Virus record (IMG/VR): IMGVR_UViG_3300024264_001398 | Location: 1-20,477 of that record | Reading direction: 5' to 3' (one strand) | Length of the DNA stretch: 20,477 nucleotides | Source: a virus | Shown: positions 1,776 through 20,477 of the stretch, in pieces | Position numbering within the stretch: the first letter of the stretch is position 1 | Layout of the letters: each line of letters starts with the position of its first letter | Program-made: the position numbers and the translations under genes | The notes under the pieces: model-generated | Databases searched by the model: none | Seen by the model: only the letters and a program-made list of their open reading frames with translations | Told to the model about the DNA's origin: nothing

Positions 1776-3515
1776 GTGGCTGTTGTACAAATTAGTAGAA
1801 TTCAAGTAAGAAGAGGACGCAAAGGACAAACGGATATTCCGCAACTTGCGTCTGGTGAAATAGGTTGGGCAGTTGATAGCCAAGAGTTGTTTATAGGCAA
1901 CGGTTCAGTAAGCGAAGGTGCACCGTATGTAGGTAATACTAAGATCCTTACTTCAGCTGATAACATTTTTAGTTTATCTAATCAATATGAATATAGAACA
2001 GATGATTCTATTATACAAACAGGTGCAACTGCACGTACATCAATCAACAGAACATTACAAGATAGATTAGAATTTAATGTTCATGTAGCAGATTTTGGCG
2101 CACAGCATGACACAAGTGCAATTCAAACTGCCGCACTACAACGTGCTATTGATAACTTATTTCTTAATACTAAAACATCTCCTGAAAACAGATACATATT
2201 AAATCTAGCACCTGGTTTATATAAAATTGACAGCAGTCTTAAACTTCCGCCATATGCAACATTAAGAGGTGCAGGAAAAAATAAAACAATTATTGAACAA
2301 ACTGCTAATCATCCAATATTCATTACAGTAAACGGTTCTAGTACGATAGGTAATTATGACGAAACTATTGCATTAAGTGCAAGTAACCAAGCTACTAACA
2401 TTGAAGTAAGCGGTATGACATTACAATACCAAGATACTGCTTCAAAGATTTATAATACTGTATTCAATCTACAAAGTTGTAGAGATAGTTATTTTCATGA
2501 TCTAAAATTAAAAGGTTATTGGGATGGCAACGGCGTACAGGCTGCATCGATTGCTATTAATTTAAAAAGTTTTAGTGGCGCAGTAAGAAGTAACTCTAAC
2601 GTATTTGAAAACATAGACATAGAAGGTTTTGCCTACGGTATTAGCAGTTCACATGATATCGAAAACAATACTTTTAGAGATATGACTTTTAACACAATGT
2701 TAATTGCAGTTAATCTAGGTGCAGGTATGGATGTAATTGACTATACTGATCCAGTAGAATTGGCAGCATACTTAGCAGACGGCCAAGCATATGGCCCTGC
2801 AAATACTATAATTGAAAATTCAGTATTTAGAGAAATATTTAATCAAGGATATGTAGTTGATAAAGGTACAGGAAACGTATCAAGAAACAACAAGTATTAC
2901 GATGTAGGTAACGACGGCGGCTCTACTTCAACAGTTGTTACTAGTGTTATTAAATTTTCTGAAACAGGTAACATAACGAGTGATGATTGGTTCGAAAGAA
3001 CATCTGATTTAAGTTATAGTTCAGAATTTGTAAACGTAAACGATGCAAACAGCAGTAATTGGCTAGTAGACGTTGCTGGACCAAAATATCTACCAGAAGT
3101 AGAAGGTGTATTCAATTACACACATAATGCTATGCATACAGTAAATCCAATAGGCTCTAATGGCAATTGGATATCAGCTTGGCGCTTACCGGCCAATCAA
3201 ACTAGGTCTTTTGAAATTCCTTACACTTATAAGTCTATTAATGCTGATGGCGTTAGACAAGGCGTATTAACTGTAATAATTGACAGAGATAACGAAAAAA
3301 TATCAGTATCAGATGAATATGAATTTATTGGACAAGATATTAGCCTAACTGGGGCCGGAAATAACTTGACATTTAGAGGAAGACTTGTTAATATAACAAG
3401 TGGGGATGTTGCAGATGCAGACAACGACACTGCCTATATTGAAATATATAATGGCACAACTGAGTCTACTGTAACGTTACCGACAATAACTTTTACTCTA
3501 TCGTCAAGGTCTTAA
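1776..3515 (+). CDS. Tail fibre/spike protein with parallel beta-helix
   Basis: This 579-residue protein starts at GTG, with AGGAG at 1764-1768. Residues 1-55 carry an N-terminal module also seen in the giant fibre downstream (VRRG, then SGEIGW, then LFIGNG), resembling the particle-attachment module of Mtd-type and other tail proteins. From about residue 100 to 400 it has the layout of a pectate-lyase-like parallel beta-helix: ADFGAQHD, AIQTAALQRAID, then LNLAPGLYKID, LPPYATLRGAG, and many N/G-rich strands including NTFRDMTF and NSVFREIF. The C-terminal region (about 430-579) is beta-rich and probably forms the tip. Such proteins sit on the virion and bind or degrade host surface glycans. 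No catalytic residues can be assigned. A late promoter motif precedes it, and it overlaps the next gene by one base. Confidence 0.8.
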   Translation: MAVVQISRIQVRRGRKGQTDIPQLASGEIGWAVDSQELFIGNGSVSEGAPYVGNTKILTSADNIFSLSNQYEYRTDDSIIQTGATARTSINRTLQDRLEFNVHVADFGAQHDTSAIQTAALQRAIDNLFLNTKTSPENRYILNLAPGLYKIDSSLKLPPYATLRGAGKNKTIIEQTANHPIFITVNGSSTIGNYDETIALSASNQATNIEVSGMTLQYQDTASKIYNTVFNLQSCRDSYFHDLKLKGYWDGNGVQAASIAINLKSFSGAVRSNSNVFENIDIEGFAYGISSSHDIENNTFRDMTFNTMLIAVNLGAGMDVIDYTDPVELAAYLADGQAYGPANTIIENSVFREIFNQGYVVDKGTGNVSRNNKYYDVGNDGGSTSTVVTSVIKFSETGNITSDDWFERTSDLSYSSEFVNVNDANSSNWLVDVAGPKYLPEVEGVFNYTHNAMHTVNPIGSNGNWISAWRLPANQTRSFEIPYTYKSINADGVRQGVLTVIIDRDNEKISVSDEYEFIGQDISLTGAGNNLTFRGRLVNITSGDVADADNDTAYIEIYNGTTESTVTLPTITFTLSSRS

Positions 3516-14300: not shown

Positions 14301-14709
14301 ATTGGCTGCAACTACATTTAGCGGTAATGCAACAACTGCTAACTATGCTGACTTAGCGGAAAAATATACTAGTGATGCAGAATACGAAGTTGGAACTGTT
14401 TTACAATTTGGCGGCGAAGCTGAAGTAACTTTATCAGAATATGCTTCTACAAAAGTAGCAGGAGTTGTATCAGAGAAACCTGCTTACTTGATGAATGCAG
14501 AGATAGAAGGTGTAGCAATAGCATTACAAGGCAGAGTACCTTGTAAGGTATGGGGCCAAGTTAGAAAAGGCGACATGATGATATCTAGTAAATATAAGGG
14601 ATATGCAGAAGCAAGTTCTTTTATTGGCGGAGCAATAATTGGTAAAGCACTTGAAGATAAAACTACAGACGGTGAAGGAATTATCGAAGTAGTTGTAGGA
14701 AGATTATAA
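8383..14709 (+). CDS. Giant tail fibre protein, 2108 residues
   Basis: This is the largest gene in the window and very probably a virion fibre. Order of parts: residues 1-55, an attachment-type module (VRRG, SGEVIYDTTNKQLYVGDGQT); about 110-700, a beta-rich region opening with LYVSPNGRDDN and containing IRLESGIYFEHFPIKVPNN, typical of beta-helix stalks; about 1040-1120, a segment with FYVTTDQDGNFRVGEYFKVD familiar from fibres of T4-like marine phages; 1237-1580, eleven degenerate repeats of 29-40 residues; about 1583-1806, a Gly/Thr/Ser-rich beta region; 1806-1887, two tandem 41-residue repeats; and 1987-2108, a C-terminal domain beginning YADLAEKYTSDAEYEVGTVL, which I recognise as a recurrent fibre C-terminus in marine phages. 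It overlaps the PAAR gene by one base. Host-surface binding is the inferred role. Confidence 0.85.
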   Translation: MPDVPERGSVLVRRGPTSDREGFTPLSGEVIYDTTNKQLYVGDGQTAGGKPAYGDKAKVDSEGNITELYLQGEQDRPAASSGLFRYNPATQSLEYSDGSEYYLVASTPFNTTTNVLYVSPNGRDDNLFGVKRGRTPGTAFASLNAACREAERVVSRASKGLGPYQKWITYDSQVQQQRSYIVSINDVGDFKDIAVFKGSAELDATTELRSGFRVIGQTSGAVGLIEEYNVNSGQTADQLIIKVEEGTFVLDEQLKFGNPIPGVPYSEYQAAGTEYPEITIRLESGIYFEHFPIKVPNNTSIKGDEFRRSIVRPRPGASASPWANTRFKRGAEHLNLDPAVVGDNPFGAHYLADRSTDIYAYAENVGDYDEAYKTFSTMQNKQVLQDSVINFITTTYPSLEYDEQKCRRDVGYIVDAVALDMLYGGYQETLFSALTYQGQLPADQVTETAAAITHLKIQMSALVESAEQSVVEDLVGSVVEVINGNFNAPKANDEVDVFLMNDATIIRNISVQGHGGFMEVLDPAGQILTKSPYTQTASSFSKSIAPDVLFGGGMFIDGFAGNLDARLKQANSTTEIIIDNVYRQPQTPTSFFIDGTRFQVDKADTVGVAAGEYRLLLNPATPWELPYYQIVNELETALPSLPYDIELLSAGNISMLGNDFTQVNDLGYGVYTTNNARCELVSVFCYYNHISYLAENGSDIRSLNGSTAYGDFALVAKGSDPLEVSDQVFVAEDTVQIATVKTTGDYPNQRGDTVVYVINPSYAPFNVSELEIDHNGAADMNGDPVYLNRYEVTNITSIDGTSPQIYALNIAQGAADNPGIQVDIPDATKIVIRSNQVIKYDGIIDVNPTRPSTALVYDDDPDKVYRVLAYDVANLPSNEARITLRESYDYVKLVIDDTAGSVAGSGQVGDTTIRLDVDFDTNEEARILGAITNSKQYVFGFDGTMHQITAYRDKATTGQLYAEVDVTPALTRSFSVYPDAPTMRAGVPATTVARITVGISTLRVTGHDLLDIGTGSYQTSSYPREIYGQPEIPASQPREVVEEGKGRVFYVTTDQDGNFRVGEYFKVDQGTGTVTFSASIALSNLDGIGFKRGVAVSEFSTDDAMTDNASDTVPTESAVRSYVNRRLGLTHAGISVPAKIGPGYLDLTATQPLQGNLDLANYKIERVAEPVSNLDATNKLFVETYADSKTFEVNSLSANVDNSITLVTDDIDESVTPTNLYFTDARAQAAISATDAGGDGSLSYDDLTGVITYTGPSATEVRAHFSAAQTSDGNTRYGGLEYDSGNGTYTYSGITLDEIRGAFTVTGSISYNAATGEIEFDEKTDGDIRGLFSASGDLAYNSGTGVFSITKYTNANARTAVSVSDTADPVGDEYYGSLSYNSTNGIISLTGTARSEIRAAISVSGDLSYNSNTGVISYTDTDRSDTAIRGLISVSGDLSYDSSTGVISFTAGEVGSGDVRGFVSANDNGGLGSFSYTESSGVFDYTGPSNSDIRGLISVSGDLSYDSSTGVISYSDAAARTESEIRALFSASGDVSYDSSTGAFSFSETAQRTDGAIRNLFTGGGDLSYNSISGAFSVTKTKVGISGSEASGTITIAGAGSVTATQNSNTVTLTGVDTTYALSVENVGTDVLDGQTRVRLSDGATNQDVIIVGGNAIEVTGTASSETITIDHADTSNNQASVSNTADDTVIQSISIDDFGHITDISSKTLSIEDLGTLADLGYSGTADANTYVLPALNIAEAEVDGNTLTLFQENDTEITFTNTTYSTATSSTLGLVKIGYTEDGKNYPVELSSGQMFVNVPWANTFRAITDTPTDGATTTSISSAWAFDNVKTAVPANALFTDTNTFRAISSTPTNGATTTSISSDWAFDNVKTAVPANALFTDTNTVTSVGITGSETTGTVTIAGAGNVTATQVGSTITLTGSSAATTTNITDSPDNPSQTQWYPTFVAGVGDQATKIHDSTLKYIPSSGTLAATTFSGNATTANYADLAEKYTSDAEYEVGTVLQFGGEAEVTLSEYASTKVAGVVSEKPAYLMNAEIEGVAIALQGRVPCKVWGQVRKGDMMISSKYKGYAEASSFIGGAIIGKALEDKTTDGEGIIEVVVGRL
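12091..13122 (+). repeat. Eleven degenerate in-frame repeats in the giant fibre
   Basis: The encoded unit is about 29-40 residues, roughly G-D-L-S-Y-x-S-x-T-G-V-I-S-Y, a variable linker, then D-I-R-G-L-I-S-V-S. I count eleven units between residues 1237 and 1580. Neighbouring units share long near-identical DNA stretches, for example around 12664-12726 and 12866-12915. The pattern suggests a repetitive trimeric beta stalk grown by unequal recombination. Confidence 0.8.
13798..14043 (+). repeat. Two tandem 123-bp in-frame repeats in the giant fibre
   Basis: Positions 13798-13920 and 13921-14043 are adjacent direct copies, each encoding 41 residues that start with TFRAI and end with ALFTDTN. 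The central and 3' parts are nearly identical in DNA, and the 5' part has diverged (TDTPTDG versus SSTPTNG). This is a fairly recent in-frame duplication. Confidence 0.9.
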
Positions 14710-15713
14710 TGCCAGAAGTAGTAAGAATAGAACTAGACGCACACGAAGGACACGAATCACCTAGTCCAGGACCTTTCCATCAAACTAGTTACAACGAAGG
14801 ATCTCCTGATGTGTTTACAAATGAAAAAGCAACAGTACGTATTGGCGACACTACAATTTGTGGAGATCCAGCAGAAACAGGATCAGATACAGTTTTTATA
14901 AATGAAATAGCAGTACATAGAAGAGGTGACGCAACATCTGGACACGGTAGTTGGGTACCAACTAAAGCAGAAACTGGCTCACAAAATGTATGGGCAAATG
15001 AAGGTTATGTCCCGCCAATTATTCTTACACCGGAACAAGCAGCCGCCACTGATGCACAAGTACAAGAAGCAATTGCTAATCCTCCTGCATCAGGAGATAC
15101 TAGTGGCCAAGTTCCAGCAAGATACGAAGGAGCACCAGCAGCTGGCGTAGACGATATGGGAACAACTACACCATTAGTTGATGCAAGTGCAGCCAATTCA
15201 ACAGCAGCAGCCGACGGCATTCCAGGATTTTTAACTGGACTATTATCAGAAGCAGCTAATGATCAATGGGACGAAACTGTTAATCCTAGTAACGGAAACA
15301 TTATTAATATATGGAAAGAGCTAGGATTTCCTGATACATCGTATTGGAAAACAGATCAAACACCTTGGTGTGCAGGATTTGTAAATTGGGTATTAAAGCG
15401 TACAGGTTACAAATATATGCAAAGTGCTAGAGCATACGACTTTAGAGACAAGACTAGTGTATATGGCGGAGTACCAGTTCCATTGTCAGATGGACAACCT
15501 GGAGATATTGTTGTATGGAATTATAGCCACGTAAACTTTATATATACATCACCGAGTCCAGGAACATATACTTTCTGCGGGGGCAATCAAAGCGACAAAG
15601 CAAGTCCTACTAATAATAATCCATCAGGCGGCACAATTACACACAGTCATCAATATGGATGGACTCAGAGTAGAGGCAAGGTCTCAGGCATATTCCGTCC
15701 GGTTAGATCATAA
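14709..15713 (+). CDS. PAAR spike-tip protein fused to a CHAP/NlpC-P60-like peptidoglycan hydrolase
   Basis: Two parts are joined in 334 residues. Residues 1-100 form a PAAR-type repeat domain: SPSPGPFHQTSYNEGSPDVF, VRIGDTTICGDPAETGSDTVF, and IAVHRRGDATSGHG with SWVP. Such domains make the metal-bound sharp tip of contractile-tail spikes (T4 gp5.4-like). Residues 100-170 are an Ala/Pro-rich linker. Residues 175-330 look like a CHAP/NlpC-P60-type cysteine amidase: TPWCAGFVNWVLK with Cys221, then QPGDIVVWNYSHVNFI with His274, then FCGGNQSD with Asn293 as a candidate third residue. This would puncture the outer membrane and then cut peptidoglycan during DNA injection. Fusion of tip and hydrolase differs from T4, where lysozyme is in gp5. 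It follows the giant fibre with a TAATG overlap. Confidence 0.85.
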   Translation: MPEVVRIELDAHEGHESPSPGPFHQTSYNEGSPDVFTNEKATVRIGDTTICGDPAETGSDTVFINEIAVHRRGDATSGHGSWVPTKAETGSQNVWANEGYVPPIILTPEQAAATDAQVQEAIANPPASGDTSGQVPARYEGAPAAGVDDMGTTTPLVDASAANSTAAADGIPGFLTGLLSEAANDQWDETVNPSNGNIINIWKELGFPDTSYWKTDQTPWCAGFVNWVLKRTGYKYMQSARAYDFRDKTSVYGGVPVPLSDGQPGDIVVWNYSHVNFIYTSPSPGTYTFCGGNQSDKASPTNNNPSGGTITHSHQYGWTQSRGKVSGIFRPVRS

Positions 15714-16167: not shown

Positions 16168-17307
16168 ATGGATCAAAGAATACATTCTATTCTCGATAAA
16201 GAAGTAGATAGACAATCAAGTACTATCGAACTTATTGCAAGTGAAAACTTTGCAAGTAAAAGTGTAATGGCACTGTCAGGCAGTGTGTTTACTAACAAGT
16301 ATGCAGAAGGTTATCCAGGCAAGCGTTACTACAATGGTTGCGATCATATGGATGAAATTGAAACACTAGCAATTGACCAACTAAAAGAATTGTATGGTTG
16401 TGAGTTTGCTAATGTACAACCACACTGCGGAGCAAATGCTAACACAGCAGTATATCAAGCATTTCTAAAACCAGGTGATAAAATACTTGGAATGGACTTA
16501 GCTAGTGGAGGACACTTGTCACATGGTAGTCCGCCAAATATCTCAGGCAAGATTTACGAAGCACATACATATGGTGTAAGAGAAGATGGGTGGATAGATT
16601 ATCCAGCAATTATGGTACAAGCAAAAGAAGTACAACCTAAGATGATTGTTGCCGGAGCAAGTGCATATCCACGTAGTATTGATTGGAGTATGTTTAGGGC
16701 TATTGCAGATAGTGTAGGTGCATTGTTGTTAGTAGACATGGCACACTATTCAGGACTAATTGCAGGTAATGCATATCCTAGTCCGTTGCCATATGCAGAC
16801 ATAGTAACAAGTACTACACACAAGACTCTTAGAGGCCCACGCGGTGGTATTATACTATGGAATAATCCGGACTATTCGAAACGTATCAATAGTGCTATTT
16901 TTCCAGGTACACAAGGCGGCCCGTTGATGCATATTATTGCAGCCAAAGCACAGTGCTTTATAGAAGCAAACACAGCAGAGTTTAAGGAATATAGCGCCAA
17001 TGTAGTACAAAATGCTAAAGCTATGTGTGACGTGCTTAGACAGCGTGATATAAGCGTACAGACAGGCGGTACTGACTCACATATTATTCTAATGGATTTA
17101 AGTGACAGCAAGCACAGTGGACGTGAAGCCGCAGACTTGTTGGAAGAGAATGGCATTACTGTAAACAAAAATGGTGTGCCAAATGATCCAAGGTCGTTTG
17201 TAGAGACAAGCGGAATACGTTTAGGTACTGCCGCTGAAACTACTCGTGGACACGACGAGATGTGGTTTAGACAACTCGCACACAGGATTGCTGATATTCT
17301 TGAATGA
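16168..17307 (+). CDS. glyA: Serine hydroxymethyltransferase
   Basis: SHMT is a PLP enzyme that converts serine and tetrahydrofolate to glycine and 5,10-methylene-THF. The 379 residues match the family along their length: IELIASENFAS (20-30), TNKYAEGYPGKRYYNGCDH (42-60), GGHLSHGSP (114-122), and VDMAHYSGL with Asp190 and His193. The PLP-binding lysine is Lys219 in STTHKTLRGPRGG. FPGTQGGPLMH and TVNKNGVPND follow. It is about 40 residues shorter than E. coli GlyA, mainly by shorter loops and C-terminus, with no catalytic motif lost. In a phage the methylene-THF would feed thymidylate synthesis, complementing the RNR genes in the window; that link is inference. It starts immediately after the membrane protein and overlaps the next gene by four bases (ATGA). 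Confidence 0.95.
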   Translation: MDQRIHSILDKEVDRQSSTIELIASENFASKSVMALSGSVFTNKYAEGYPGKRYYNGCDHMDEIETLAIDQLKELYGCEFANVQPHCGANANTAVYQAFLKPGDKILGMDLASGGHLSHGSPPNISGKIYEAHTYGVREDGWIDYPAIMVQAKEVQPKMIVAGASAYPRSIDWSMFRAIADSVGALLLVDMAHYSGLIAGNAYPSPLPYADIVTSTTHKTLRGPRGGIILWNNPDYSKRINSAIFPGTQGGPLMHIIAAKAQCFIEANTAEFKEYSANVVQNAKAMCDVLRQRDISVQTGGTDSHIILMDLSDSKHSGREAADLLEENGITVNKNGVPNDPRSFVETSGIRLGTAAETTRGHDEMWFRQLAHRIADILE

Positions 17308-17806: not shown

Positions 17807-18119
17807 ACAAGGTGACTTAGCAGTAATCAAATGGTCAGTGAATCCACAAAACGTAGGCCGTATTGTAAAAGTAGCAGAACTAATTGGACATTTTGAAAAA
17901 GGTACACATTTTCATTTTAATGGAATAATGTGTCAGGCTGCTGTTACTGATAATTATTGGTGGATCGAAGCTGATGATCTAAATATTATGCTTGGACCAT
18001 CACCTCGTGCATATATTGCAGATACTTGGTTAGAACCAATTAAACCTAAAAAAGACGAAGGCTTAACTGCTGAAGAAATAGAAGACAGAAAGTTTGCTAT
18101 GGACTTAATCTTAGGTTGA
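17796..18119 (+). CDS. Hypothetical protein with SH3/KOW-like N-terminus, 107 residues
   Basis: The opening (MKCKQGDLAVIKWSVNPQNV, then GRIVKVAELIGHF) has the G-D-x-A-x-I and G-R-I-V-K-V spacing of SH3/KOW-like beta barrels, a pattern frequent in small phage proteins. WWIEADDLN follows, and the C-terminus is charged and helical. Its TGA stop (18117-18119) lies inside the -35 box of the tmRNA promoter. Function unknown. Confidence 0.65.
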   Translation: MKCKQGDLAVIKWSVNPQNVGRIVKVAELIGHFEKGTHFHFNGIMCQAAVTDNYWWIEADDLNIMLGPSPRAYIADTWLEPIKPKKDEGLTAEEIEDRKFAMDLILG

Positions 18120-18146
18120 CAATCAGTAAAAAAGGCTGTATAAATA
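18116..18146 (+). promoter_or_regulatory. Composite promoter of the tmRNA gene
   Basis: TTGACA (18116-18121), a 17-base spacer and TATAAA (18139-18144) make a near-consensus sigma70 promoter. The -10 box extends into TATAAATA (18139-18146) followed by C, identical to the T4 late promoter consensus. The same site could therefore serve host sigma70 early and a phage late sigma factor later. Predicted initiation is near 18151. Confidence 0.8.
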
Positions 18147-18150
18147 CAAC

Positions 18151-18400
18151 TGTAACGTTGAAGCAATTCAAACGACGAGCTGGACCCGGGGGCGGTACCC
18201 GGCAGCTCCACCAAGTATACATTTAATGAGTGTATAGTTGATGGGGCTGAACTAGGATCGACAGGCGGATTAGTAGAAGAGTGGAGTTGCCCGGATGTAA
18301 GCTCGGTTAACGCGAACAAACTTAATAATTGCAAACGCGAATTATTCATTAGCAGCTTAGGCTGTTACGAGGTAGTTAGGCCTTGTTACCAAACATAGCA
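18151..18400 (+). ncRNA. ssrA: Circularly permuted (two-piece) tmRNA gene
   Basis: The acceptor piece comes first, as in alphaproteobacteria. It ends with CAGCTCC (18203-18209) and an encoded ACCA (18210-18213). A T-arm of CCGGG/CCCGG closes a seven-base loop that lacks the usual TTC. After a 29-base spacer (18214-18242) the coding piece begins GGGGCTG (18243-18249), which pairs with CAGCTCC over seven bases (one G-U). TAGGATCGACAGG follows, like the tmRNA 5' consensus. The tag frame is most likely 18331-18357, reading ANANYSLAA before TAG (18358-18360). With the charged alanine this gives AANANYSLAA, close to E. coli AANDENYALAA, and the GCAAACG...TTAGCAGCTTA DNA also matches. A TTGAA/GCAA/TTCAA hairpin lies in the acceptor piece. 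The ends 18151 and 18400 are approximate. The role is rescue of stalled ribosomes and tagging of nascent proteins, with host SmpB. Confidence 0.93.
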
Positions 18401-18402
18401 GG

Positions 18403-18429
18403 AAAAGGCACTTCGGTGTCTTTTCTTTT
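18403..18429 (+). terminator. Intrinsic terminator after tmRNA
   Basis: AAAAGGCAC (18403-18411), a TTCG tetraloop and GTGTCTTTT (18416-18424) form a nine-base-pair stem followed by CTTTT. This is a clear Rho-independent terminator isolating the tmRNA transcript from the permease gene. Confidence 0.85.
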
Positions 18430-18437
18430 GAGTCCGG

Positions 18438-18471
18438 TTGACAAATTACAAATAGTTTCGTACAATAAATA
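18438..18471 (+). promoter_or_regulatory. Composite promoter of the PiT-like permease gene
   Basis: TTGACA (18438-18443), a 17-base spacer and TACAAT (18461-18466) form a near-consensus sigma70 promoter. AATAAATA (18464-18471), a match to the NATAAATA late motif, overlaps its -10 box. No Pho-box-like direct repeat was recognised upstream. Confidence 0.75.
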
Positions 18472-18474
18472 AAT

Positions 18475-18525
18475 GGTAGGCAACGTCGAGCCTACCTATT
18501 ATGTGAGCGCCGTGGACAAGACGGC
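18475..18525 (+). promoter_or_regulatory. Structured 5' leader of the PiT-like permease gene
   Basis: Two hairpins fill the leader. The first is GGTAGGC (18475-18481), an eight-base loop and GCCTACC (18490-18496). The second is GCCGT (18509-18513), a seven-base loop and ACGGC (18521-18525). The ribosome binding site (AGAGGAGA, 18530-18537) follows five bases after the second stem. Transcription would begin about at the first hairpin. This could be an mRNA-stabilising 5' stem or a regulatory RNA; I do not match it to a known riboswitch class. Confidence 0.5.
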
Positions 18526-18542
18526 AAGCAGAGGAGAAACTA

Positions 18543-19502
18543 ATGGACGCACTCACCTTATGGAGCCTAGTCGGGTTCCTATTCGCAGCATATGCTGTGA
18601 TTGCAAATGATTCAGTACAAACGCTCGGTACATGGATGGCATCAAATAACGAGCGATTCAAGTATACAACATTATGGGGAGCGGCAAGTGCAGTGTTACT
18701 TGCAACACTCTGGTATGGTTGGTATACAAACGGCGGTGACATCAGTTACGGTCGACTTAATAAAATACCATGGGAAGAAATACAATGGTATCATGCAGCC
18801 GCTCCAGGCATACTTGTATTATTAACAAGACTTGGTGTCCCGGTATCAACATCCTTTCTAGTGTTGAGTGCTTTTGCAAGTACTTTTGTGCTAGAAAAGA
18901 TGTTGATGAAGAGCATCATGGGCTACGGTATTGCGGCAATGTTCGCATACGGAGTATGGTATGTAGTTAGTAGAACACTTGATGAAGGTGTAGCAGTACA
19001 AGAGAAGAACAAAAACTATTGGCGCATAGCACAGTGGTTTGCAACAGGAGGCTTGTGGTGGACTTGGTTGTCACATGACATGGCTAACATTGCAGTGTTC
19101 CTTCCAAGACAAGTACCTGTGGATCTAATGGTGTTGATTAGTTTTGTATTTGTAGGAGGCTTGTTCTTTATGTTTAGAGAACGAGGCGGCAAGATACAAA
19201 ATATTGTACTAGAAAAACATAACACTCGTTATGTAAGAAGTGCAACGCTAATTGACTTGTTCTATTGGATGTGTTTGTACTTCTTTAAAGAACTAAACGA
19301 TATACCTATGTCAACAACTTGGGTGTTCGTCGGTATGTTAGCTGGACGTGAACTTGCTATTGCACAGTTTACAGGCAAACATAAATTTAAAAGTGTGTTT
19401 CCATTAGTTGGAAGAGACTTTATGAAAATGATGATAGGACTTGGAGCAAGTGTTGCCCTTGTACTGTTAATCCATTACGTTATTGTTCCTAACGGACTTT
19501 AA
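18543..19502 (+). CDS. PiT-family permease (probable inorganic phosphate transporter)
   Basis: This 319-residue polytopic membrane protein shows the internal duplication of the PiT family. The first half has ANDSVQTLGT (21-30) and VPVSTSF (99-105). The second half has WLSHDMANIAV (175-185) and IPMSTTWVFVGMLAGRE (254-270). These correspond to the paired 'GxNDxAN' and 'PxSTTH' signatures of PitA-type transporters. About eight to ten hydrophobic segments are visible. It is shorter than E. coli PitA (about 500 residues) because the long central loop is missing. PiT proteins move phosphate with H+ or Na+; some members (CysP) carry sulfate, so the substrate is not certain. It has its own promoter, structured leader, strong ribosome binding site and terminator, and is next to a porin-like gene. 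In a phage it would be an auxiliary nutrient-uptake gene. Confidence 0.82.
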   Translation: MDALTLWSLVGFLFAAYAVIANDSVQTLGTWMASNNERFKYTTLWGAASAVLLATLWYGWYTNGGDISYGRLNKIPWEEIQWYHAAAPGILVLLTRLGVPVSTSFLVLSAFASTFVLEKMLMKSIMGYGIAAMFAYGVWYVVSRTLDEGVAVQEKNKNYWRIAQWFATGGLWWTWLSHDMANIAVFLPRQVPVDLMVLISFVFVGGLFFMFRERGGKIQNIVLEKHNTRYVRSATLIDLFYWMCLYFFKELNDIPMSTTWVFVGMLAGRELAIAQFTGKHKFKSVFPLVGRDFMKMMIGLGASVALVLLIHYVIVPNGL

Positions 19503-19520
19503 TATCTAGCTAATCGACGT

Positions 19521-19553
19521 AAGAGTGTTGCTGAAAAGTGACACTCTTTTCTC
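19521..19553 (+). terminator. Intrinsic terminator after the PiT-like gene
   Basis: AAGAGTGT (19521-19528), a 12-base loop and ACACTCTT (19541-19548) form an eight-base-pair stem followed by TTCTC. It ends the permease transcript about 20 bases after its stop codon. Confidence 0.7.
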
Positions 19554-19603
19554 TTGGCAGCTCATTCTTGCACAAAAAGAGTGCGCATTAGATAACTAAT
19601 AGT

Positions 19604-19672
19604 GTGAAGCAAAACATTCCCACCCCAAAGCTCACATAGAAAAAAATAATATAATAATATAAGGAAGTAATA
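19604..19672 (+). promoter_or_regulatory. Leader region of the porin-like gene
   Basis: GTGAAGC (19604-19610) can pair with GCTCAC (19630-19635) with one bulged A, enclosing a C-rich loop. TATAAT (19650-19655) sits in an A/T-only stretch, but no good -35 box lies 17 bases upstream and it is close to the start codon, so promoter status is uncertain. AAGGAAG (19661-19667) is the ribosome binding site for the ATG at 19673. Confidence 0.35.
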
Positions 19673-20477
19673 ATGCGTATTCTCGCGATAGCAATGGTTG
19701 CCGCAATGGCAACGACTTCAGCAATGGCTGAAGAAACAGTAACAAAAACACAGGCTCCAGTAGGGCTAGTATTATCAGGTGCAGTAAACTTAGACTTTGC
19801 TGAAACAGCCGCAGGTAAAACAGCAGGCGTAATGGGTATCGAACTAGACGTTGATGCAGGTTCTTTAGCAACTGTTGACCTAGACTTTAAAGCAACAGAC
19901 GGTAATGCTCTAACACTGGACACATGGACAGTAGGAACTACAATCGGTGCAGTAGGTTTAGCATTTGGTGATGACAACGGTCTATTACCAGAAACAGGTG
20001 CAAATGCATCAGCTGACGGAACATTAGCAAAACCAGCAATGACAGAATCATTAGCATTGTCTTTTGGTGGTGCAAGTGTAGCAGTAGGCTTAACTGACTG
20101 GACAACAGACGTATCAGAAGTAAGTAACCTACAAGGTGCATACACAGTAGACGCAGGTATTGTAGACGTAACAGCAAGTGCTGACTACAACCGTACAAGC
20201 GAAAACACTGTACTAGGTGCAGAAGTTGCTGGACTAGACTTAGGTATGGTAACAGCAGGCGGTATGGCAACATACGACACAGATGCAGAAGATTGGGCTT
20301 TTGAAGGTTCAGTAGCAACTGGCGGCTTATCAGCATACATCAACGGTTCAGATGATAACAGACTACAGCACGTAGGTGGTGAGTATGTATTAAACTATGC
20401 AGGTGCAGAACTAAGTGCAGGTGTTGATTATGACACAGACGCAAAAGACTGGACACCAACAGCAGGTTTAGCATTTA
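19673..20477 (+). CDS. Porin-like outer-membrane beta-barrel protein, 3'-truncated
   Basis: The frame is open from the ATG at 19673 to the right edge (268 codons). The N-terminus is a typical Sec signal peptide: MRILAIAMVAAMATTSAMA with likely cleavage before EETVTK. The mature part consists of alternating hydrophobic/polar strands of 8-12 residues with Gly, Asp, Asn and Thr-rich turns (GVMGIELDVDAGSLATVDLD, then GAVGLAFGDD, then VAVGLTDW, then ISAYINGSDD-like stretches). This is the signature of a Gram-negative beta-barrel such as a general porin. It is acidic, without cysteines in the visible part. It lies beside the PiT-like permease, suggesting a paired outer/inner membrane uptake route. 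Alternatives are a host-derived receptor decoy or superinfection-exclusion protein. No closing C-terminal Phe is visible because of the truncation. Confidence 0.75.
   Translation, partial: MRILAIAMVAAMATTSAMAEETVTKTQAPVGLVLSGAVNLDFAETAAGKTAGVMGIELDVDAGSLATVDLDFKATDGNALTLDTWTVGTTIGAVGLAFGDDNGLLPETGANASADGTLAKPAMTESLALSFGGASVAVGLTDWTTDVSEVSNLQGAYTVDAGIVDVTASADYNRTSENTVLGAEVAGLDLGMVTAGGMATYDTDAEDWAFEGSVATGGLSAYINGSDDNRLQHVGGEYVLNYAGAELSAGVDYDTDAKDWTPTAGLAF

Follow-up and report, generated by a model that had tools for sequence, protein, structure and literature searches.

Phosphorus is limiting in much of the ocean, and the demand of phages for it is large. In cyanophages, control of pstS has been ascribed to the PhoBR system of the host. 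In T4-like phages, hairpins close to start codons serve as operators, and we know of no established riboswitch for inorganic phosphate. Two-piece tmRNAs have been described in SAR11 and OM43 phages together with a glutamine riboswitch accompanying the tmRNA of phage Melnitz, a report that does not mention a porin (PMC9004378). The window analysed here, the 20,477 bases of IMG/VR virus record IMGVR_UViG_3300024264_001398, brings related elements together at its 3' end. Its initial annotation had seen there a PiT-family permease followed by a secreted, porin-like barrel, and had proposed a two-membrane nutrient-uptake cassette gained as a module. We consider it probable that two units were joined by an insertion, namely a mobile, RNA-regulated phosphate-uptake gene and a tmRNA-porin pair. 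The features of the locus are collected in Table 1.

Table 1. Features at the 3' end of the window, in order of position.
Feature	Position	Strand	Basis
Permuted two-piece tmRNA, alphaproteobacterial type	18135..18409	+	Rfam RF04321 and RF01849; acceptor piece first, coding piece second
tmRNA tag frame ANANYSLAA with stop TAG	18331..18360	+	Read from sequence
UUCG-loop terminator hairpin 3' of tmRNA, belonging to the inserted unit	18400..18427	+	Fold -14.6 kcal/mol, z -2.9
Inserted PiT unit (terminator, promoter, leader, permease)	18401..19520	+	Flanks contiguous in L082, L084 and L119
Putative sigma-70-type promoter TTGACA-17-TACAAT	18438..18466	+	11 of 12 consensus positions; consensus match only
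Stem-loop SL1, conserved loop AACGUCGA, where the PiT mRNA is expected to start	18475..18496	+	Present in some relatives only
RNA motif R1, hairpin of 37 nt with the Shine-Dalgarno sequence at its 3' end	18500..18536	+	Covariation; model score 54.9 bits
PiT-like inner-membrane permease, 319 aa	18543..19502	+	Signature pairs; weak PHO4 match; relatives
Terminator 3' of permease, directly after tmRNA in PiT-less relatives	19521..19548	+	
Hairpin in porin 5' leader (GUGAAGC...GCUCAC; recurrent form GUGAGC...GCUCAC)	19604..19635	+	Read from sequence; recurs in relatives
Predicted porin of 16 strands with signal peptide, truncated at the contig end	19673..20476	+	ORF, relatives, AlphaFold2, structure match

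The permuted tmRNA lies directly upstream of the PiT unit and had been overlooked in the initial annotation. Both Rfam matches exceeded the gathering score (RF04321, 104 bits; RF01849, 92 bits), and these models detected the gene where ARAGORN, run on the window, missed it. The tag was shared by 14 of the tmRNA-bearing loci read. An open reading frame on the minus strand (17954-18349) was rejected as a gene because it overlaps the tmRNA. We infer the host solely from the tmRNA type and the homologues described below. Elsewhere the same phage carries nrdA, nrdB and glutaredoxin genes, a serine hydroxymethyltransferase gene between the tail-region genes and the tmRNA (16168-17307; PF00464, E 1e-148), a 334-aa protein fusing a PAAR motif to a CHAP domain (14709-15713) and a NifU-like domain protein (PF01106; 755-1042).

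The insertion could be read directly from relatives that share this porin, lack PiT and so show an empty site. The viral contigs used for comparison, given as L numbers, are fragments and are not independent of one another. Window positions 18400 and 19521 correspond to positions 3263/3267 of L082, 5844/5848 of L084 and 3475/3479 of L119. As the two flanks are contiguous there, the intervening unit of about 1.1 kb was inserted right behind the tmRNA, separating its 3' end from its own terminator, with the result that PiT now precedes the porin. The UUCG-loop hairpin was missing at the empty site of L082. From leader to stop codon of PiT, the window was 97% identical to L002, whose flanks, promoter and terminator differ. 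The proposed modular gain of the permease is thus borne out by the empty site in three relatives. Separate transcription signals, which had been claimed for both genes, hold for PiT, with its candidate promoter and downstream terminator; for the porin, no strong sigma-70 promoter was found. The SL1 site was occupied by a terminator-like hairpin in other relatives. In L119 the hairpin of the porin leader reads GUGAAC...GUUCAC, a possible compensatory change. Other cargo was found in the tmRNA-porin interval of L053, L085, L086, L087, L089, L091 and L105, where prs (PRPP synthetase-like), PiT with prs, an aldolase-like gene and others were named by eye. The tmRNA-porin neighbourhood is conserved and serves as a cargo site.

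The assignment of the permease to the PiT type had been based on two duplicated signature pairs. Both are present (N22-D23 with PVST 100-103, and H178-D179 with PMST 255-258) and were invariant in 21 viral and cellular relatives, the second copy reading HD and not ND. In the HMM comparison that the initial annotation had proposed, PHO4 (PF01384) was indeed the top Pfam match, but its 15 bits lay under the cut-off of 33.7. PHO4 matches were seen in 18 of the 21 family members (E up to 1); the cut-off was passed, with 36.1 bits, by L156, a flavobacterial relative about 61% identical to the window permease. Profile comparison with classic alphaproteobacterial PiT (hhalign) gave E values from 9e-5 to 3e-4 at a probability of 41-59%, against an E value of 0.4 for the reversed control. 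An AlphaFold2 model built from a shallow alignment had a pLDDT of 41. The permease profile found no solved structure by sequence, there was no usable match in PHROGs, and tblastn against 50,697 phage records returned nothing at the limits used, and thus no cultured relative. Judged by its sequence the permease is a distant PiT relative, which we call PiT-like and do not file as a member of PHO4.

The permease family was present in 569 viral contigs in one scan, and among cells its homologues came from SAR11 (57-60% identity), from Flavobacteriales (62-65%) and from some other alphaproteobacteria. A Porin_O_P gene follows the homologue in one alphaproteobacterial MAG (L154:4001-6394; PF07396, E 7e-73). 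A response regulator and a histidine kinase precede the homologue of a Bacteroidota MAG; their best NCBIfam matches were PhoB and PnpS/PhoR, both under the curated cut-offs. Together with the pstS-PiT pairs of phages, these neighbours tie the permease to phosphate by context, in line with the initial annotation, and suggest phosphate as its substrate. A prs gene lay at most 2.5 kb away in 41 of 149 distinct PiT genes. Contigs L128-L131 (FZLS01), labelled Rhodobacteraceae bacterium Water_Bin34, resemble phage contigs binned with a bacterium; they carry phage-type PiT up to 90% identical, with R1 in two and a porin in L129.

The downstream gene encodes a protein with the signal peptide MRILAIAMVAAMATTSAMA. 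AlphaFold2 predicted a barrel of 16 strands at moderate confidence (pLDDT 74, pTM 0.67) and placed a helix in the long loop that joins strands 5 and 6; the solved structures closest to this model were the porins of Rhodobacter blastica (E 2e-8, TM about 0.6). Full-length relatives are mostly 259-273 aa long and end in F just past the position of the contig end, so that only about two residues and the stop codon of the window porin are missing. The signal peptide, the 16 predicted strands, the helix in the constriction loop and the terminal aromatic residue of the relatives are traits of porins, and the barrel fold is predicted to be porin-type. The secreted beta-barrel thus holds by structure prediction, whereas the search for a porin family gave no curated match in Pfam, PHROGs or NCBIfam, and Porin_O_P (PF07396) did not match the window porin either. 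The porin profile retrieved no solved structure by sequence. Searching 50,697 phage records by tblastn with this and two other porins gave nothing at the limits used. At the sensitivity used, the family was not detected in the 117 Pelagibacterales genomes searched, and 240 alphaproteobacterial genomes yielded one weak partial match only.

The linkage of this porin to the tmRNA was examined in 40 large viral records, which had been picked because they had PiT or porin, regardless of any tmRNA, and were searched for all three features. All 19 records with a strong porin match (E < 1e-70) had a permuted tmRNA upstream of the porin on the same strand, at a distance of 72-205 nt in 15, 1.3 kb in one and 3-4 kb in three. 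Uniform placement would give p of about 1e-31, a value that ignores shared ancestry. In L056, L076, L285 and L298 the full-length tmRNA match stops some 30 nt short of the porin start codon, which makes joint transcription of tmRNA and porin likely in those loci; the porin may there be translated from the tmRNA precursor transcript. tmRNA and porin are a pair conserved across several marine phage lineages. A search of open-licence literature found phage tmRNAs and no report of a tmRNA-porin link.

Between the promoter and the permease lies a structured leader, R1, likewise overlooked in the initial annotation. Its layout is GUGAGCG-NNNN-GGUAAAG-like loop-NNNN-CAAGCAGAGGAG, also given as GUGAGCG-NNNN-GGUAAAG-NNNN-CAAGCARAGGAG, and it is common to PiT genes in differing genome contexts. 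A helix of 5 bp was paired in 43 of 43 aligned sequences, with compensatory changes in four pairs, and the covariation score of 0.51-0.56 fell to 0.12 or less when the alignment was slid. The outer two pairs never vary and therefore contribute no covariation. Letters of the internal loop were invariant. The strict pattern occurred in 119 of 171 PiT leaders, where all 11 stem combinations were complementary; the other 52 leaders did not carry it. For the Shine-Dalgarno sequence we found no alternative pairing. Upstream of R1, a T4-like late promoter sequence was enriched (17 of 61, versus 1%).

In viral contigs, a covariance model of R1 matched almost exclusively before PiT. A pattern scan of IMG/VR gave at least 113 newly read sites; among the matches listed, 106 stood before PiT, two before a secreted barrel-like protein (C61), one before a small barrel matching Phage_OMP of Pfam, two before pstS, one before a 55-aa ORF and one at a contig edge. 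A full scan before start codons other than ATGG added 18 stretches, and every readable neighbourhood was PiT or the gene just upstream of it. When relatives of phage pstS were fetched independently, R1 stood at the pstS start in 9 of 73 loci; PiT followed directly in eight of these, and the ninth locus is truncated. These genes were assigned to pstS by their matches to PF12849 (E 1e-49) and TIGR02136 (E 2.5e-44, under the curated cut-off). The order pstS then PiT was seen in L442, L451, L518, L520, L522, L530-L532, L535 and L536; R1 precedes pstS there, and some of these loci have R1 ahead of PiT as well. The 55-aa ORF is cysteine-rich, without a Pfam match, and lies with its R1 leader just upstream of PiT (L446:3603-3770, L600, L601). 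A search of 289 alphaproteobacterial genomes, run under strict filters and with no positive control, did not turn up R1; its distribution is phage-only so far. In open-licence literature we found pstS and no account of a phage PiT leader. R1 is conserved and covaries, and it stands immediately before a coherent set of genes, as a riboswitch would in structural terms. As it is confined to PiT loci, its link to phosphate runs through PiT and pstS alone. Most probably R1 regulates the translation of PiT in cis. The locus suggests that phages control phosphate uptake with a previously undescribed RNA element.

The cassette of the initial annotation can be weighed against this organization. Elsewhere, outer-membrane barrels and PiT do occur as pairs, in phages having both genes under R1 and in the bacterium where PiT adjoins Porin_O_P. 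The survey of relatives also showed adjacency recurring in several lineages with differing orders: tmRNA-PiT-porin in the window, tmRNA-PiT-prs-porin in L053 and L085, tmRNA-porin-PiT in the L056 group and PiT-tmRNA-porin in the L285 group. The data do not, however, support this PiT and this porin as one conserved or co-regulated unit. The constant neighbour of the porin is the tmRNA, the porin lacks the R1 leader motif, and a terminator stands between the two genes. Across ten records having both, the distance ranged from 0.4 to 23 kb (p about 0.008), reaching 12-23 kb in several phages. Near the majority of window-type porin loci there is no PiT, and it is missing from close relatives that share the porin site; the L056-type locus occurs without PiT in L268-L270, and prs is the more frequent neighbour of PiT. 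The recurrent adjacency may just mean that the tmRNA neighbourhood takes up cargo genes. We therefore think it unlikely that selection holds the two genes together here as a dedicated two-membrane cassette for phosphate uptake; joint action of the two proteins is possible, and the evidence does not require it. The porin might instead serve a tmRNA-linked module outside nutrition, for instance by replacing host porins so that receptors are hidden from other phages, or by maintaining the envelope during infection. This has some plausibility, given a tmRNA linkage that is independent of PiT and a gap of about 30 nt, with scant space for a promoter of its own, in four lineages, but the protein is predicted to fold like a general diffusion porin.

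For the permease, a substrate other than phosphate would fit the sub-threshold PHO4 score and the HD signature; the pstS-PiT pairs, the PhoB/PhoR-like and Porin_O_P neighbours, the invariant signature pairs and the relative above the cut-off make it improbable. R1 could well be no sensor at all, acting instead as a fixed element for translation or stability, or as an operator to which an RNA-binding protein of the phage attaches: the motif is short, no alternative Shine-Dalgarno pairing was seen, it has been met in phages only, and hairpin operators of T4-like phages offer a precedent. A general stabiliser would be expected before many phage genes, whereas R1 is confined to genes of PiT loci, and the invariant loop letters suggest specific recognition, which a protein could also give. 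That R1 is a riboswitch sensing inorganic phosphate or a phosphate-status metabolite, and switches PiT, PstS and small outer-membrane barrels independently of host PhoBR, is a doubtful proposition at present. If the leader did sense phosphate, it would be a riboswitch of a new kind, and marine phages would have phosphate control independent of host PhoBR.

We thus favour the joining of two units by insertion; weighing against it are the score of the window protein below the PHO4 cut-off and the PiT leaders that lack strict R1. One unit would be a self-contained mobile gene, with a promoter, an R1 leader running into the ribosome-binding site and the PiT-like permease; the other would be the tmRNA-porin pair kept in several marine phage lineages. 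R1 would set PiT translation in response to some signal, be it a ligand or a protein. In an infected cell, the permease would bring more phosphate through the inner membrane to feed the synthesis of nucleotides and DNA, and the porin would add permeability to the outer membrane. With the conserved leader of its own that this widespread phage permease carries, there is a directly testable candidate regulator of phosphate acquisition in many marine phages, and the analysis also brings out the conserved tmRNA-porin neighbourhood as a cargo site.

Compared with known systems, R1 resembles riboswitches and other structured leaders of transporter genes in its covariation, its conserved loop letters and its place directly before a transporter start codon; it differs in matching no family of Rfam 15. 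With PiT/SLC20 transporters (PF01384; solved example 6L85) the permease has in common two ND-type and two P-[VM]-S-T motifs, arranged as an internal repeat with similar spacing, and weak but specific PHO4 matches. It is shorter, deviates in its second motif and belongs to a family of its own that spans phages, SAR11, Bacteroidota and some other alphaproteobacteria. The predicted strand number, signal peptide, long-loop helix and C-terminal aromatic residue (in its relatives) are shared between the porin and the 16-strand alphaproteobacterial porins of Rhodobacter blastica (5PRN, 1BH3), to which the window porin is only 14-15% identical. Like the two-piece tmRNAs of SAR11 and OM43 phages (PMC9004378), that of the window is permuted, of alphaproteobacterial type, has a tag ending in LAA and belongs with marine T4-like phages; unlike those, it is linked to a porin. 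Finally, as with pstS of marine cyanophages, a function in phosphate acquisition would be carried by the phage, and pstS precedes PiT in some relatives, but the window gene encodes a permease and not a binding protein, and the RNA leader is common to PiT and pstS.
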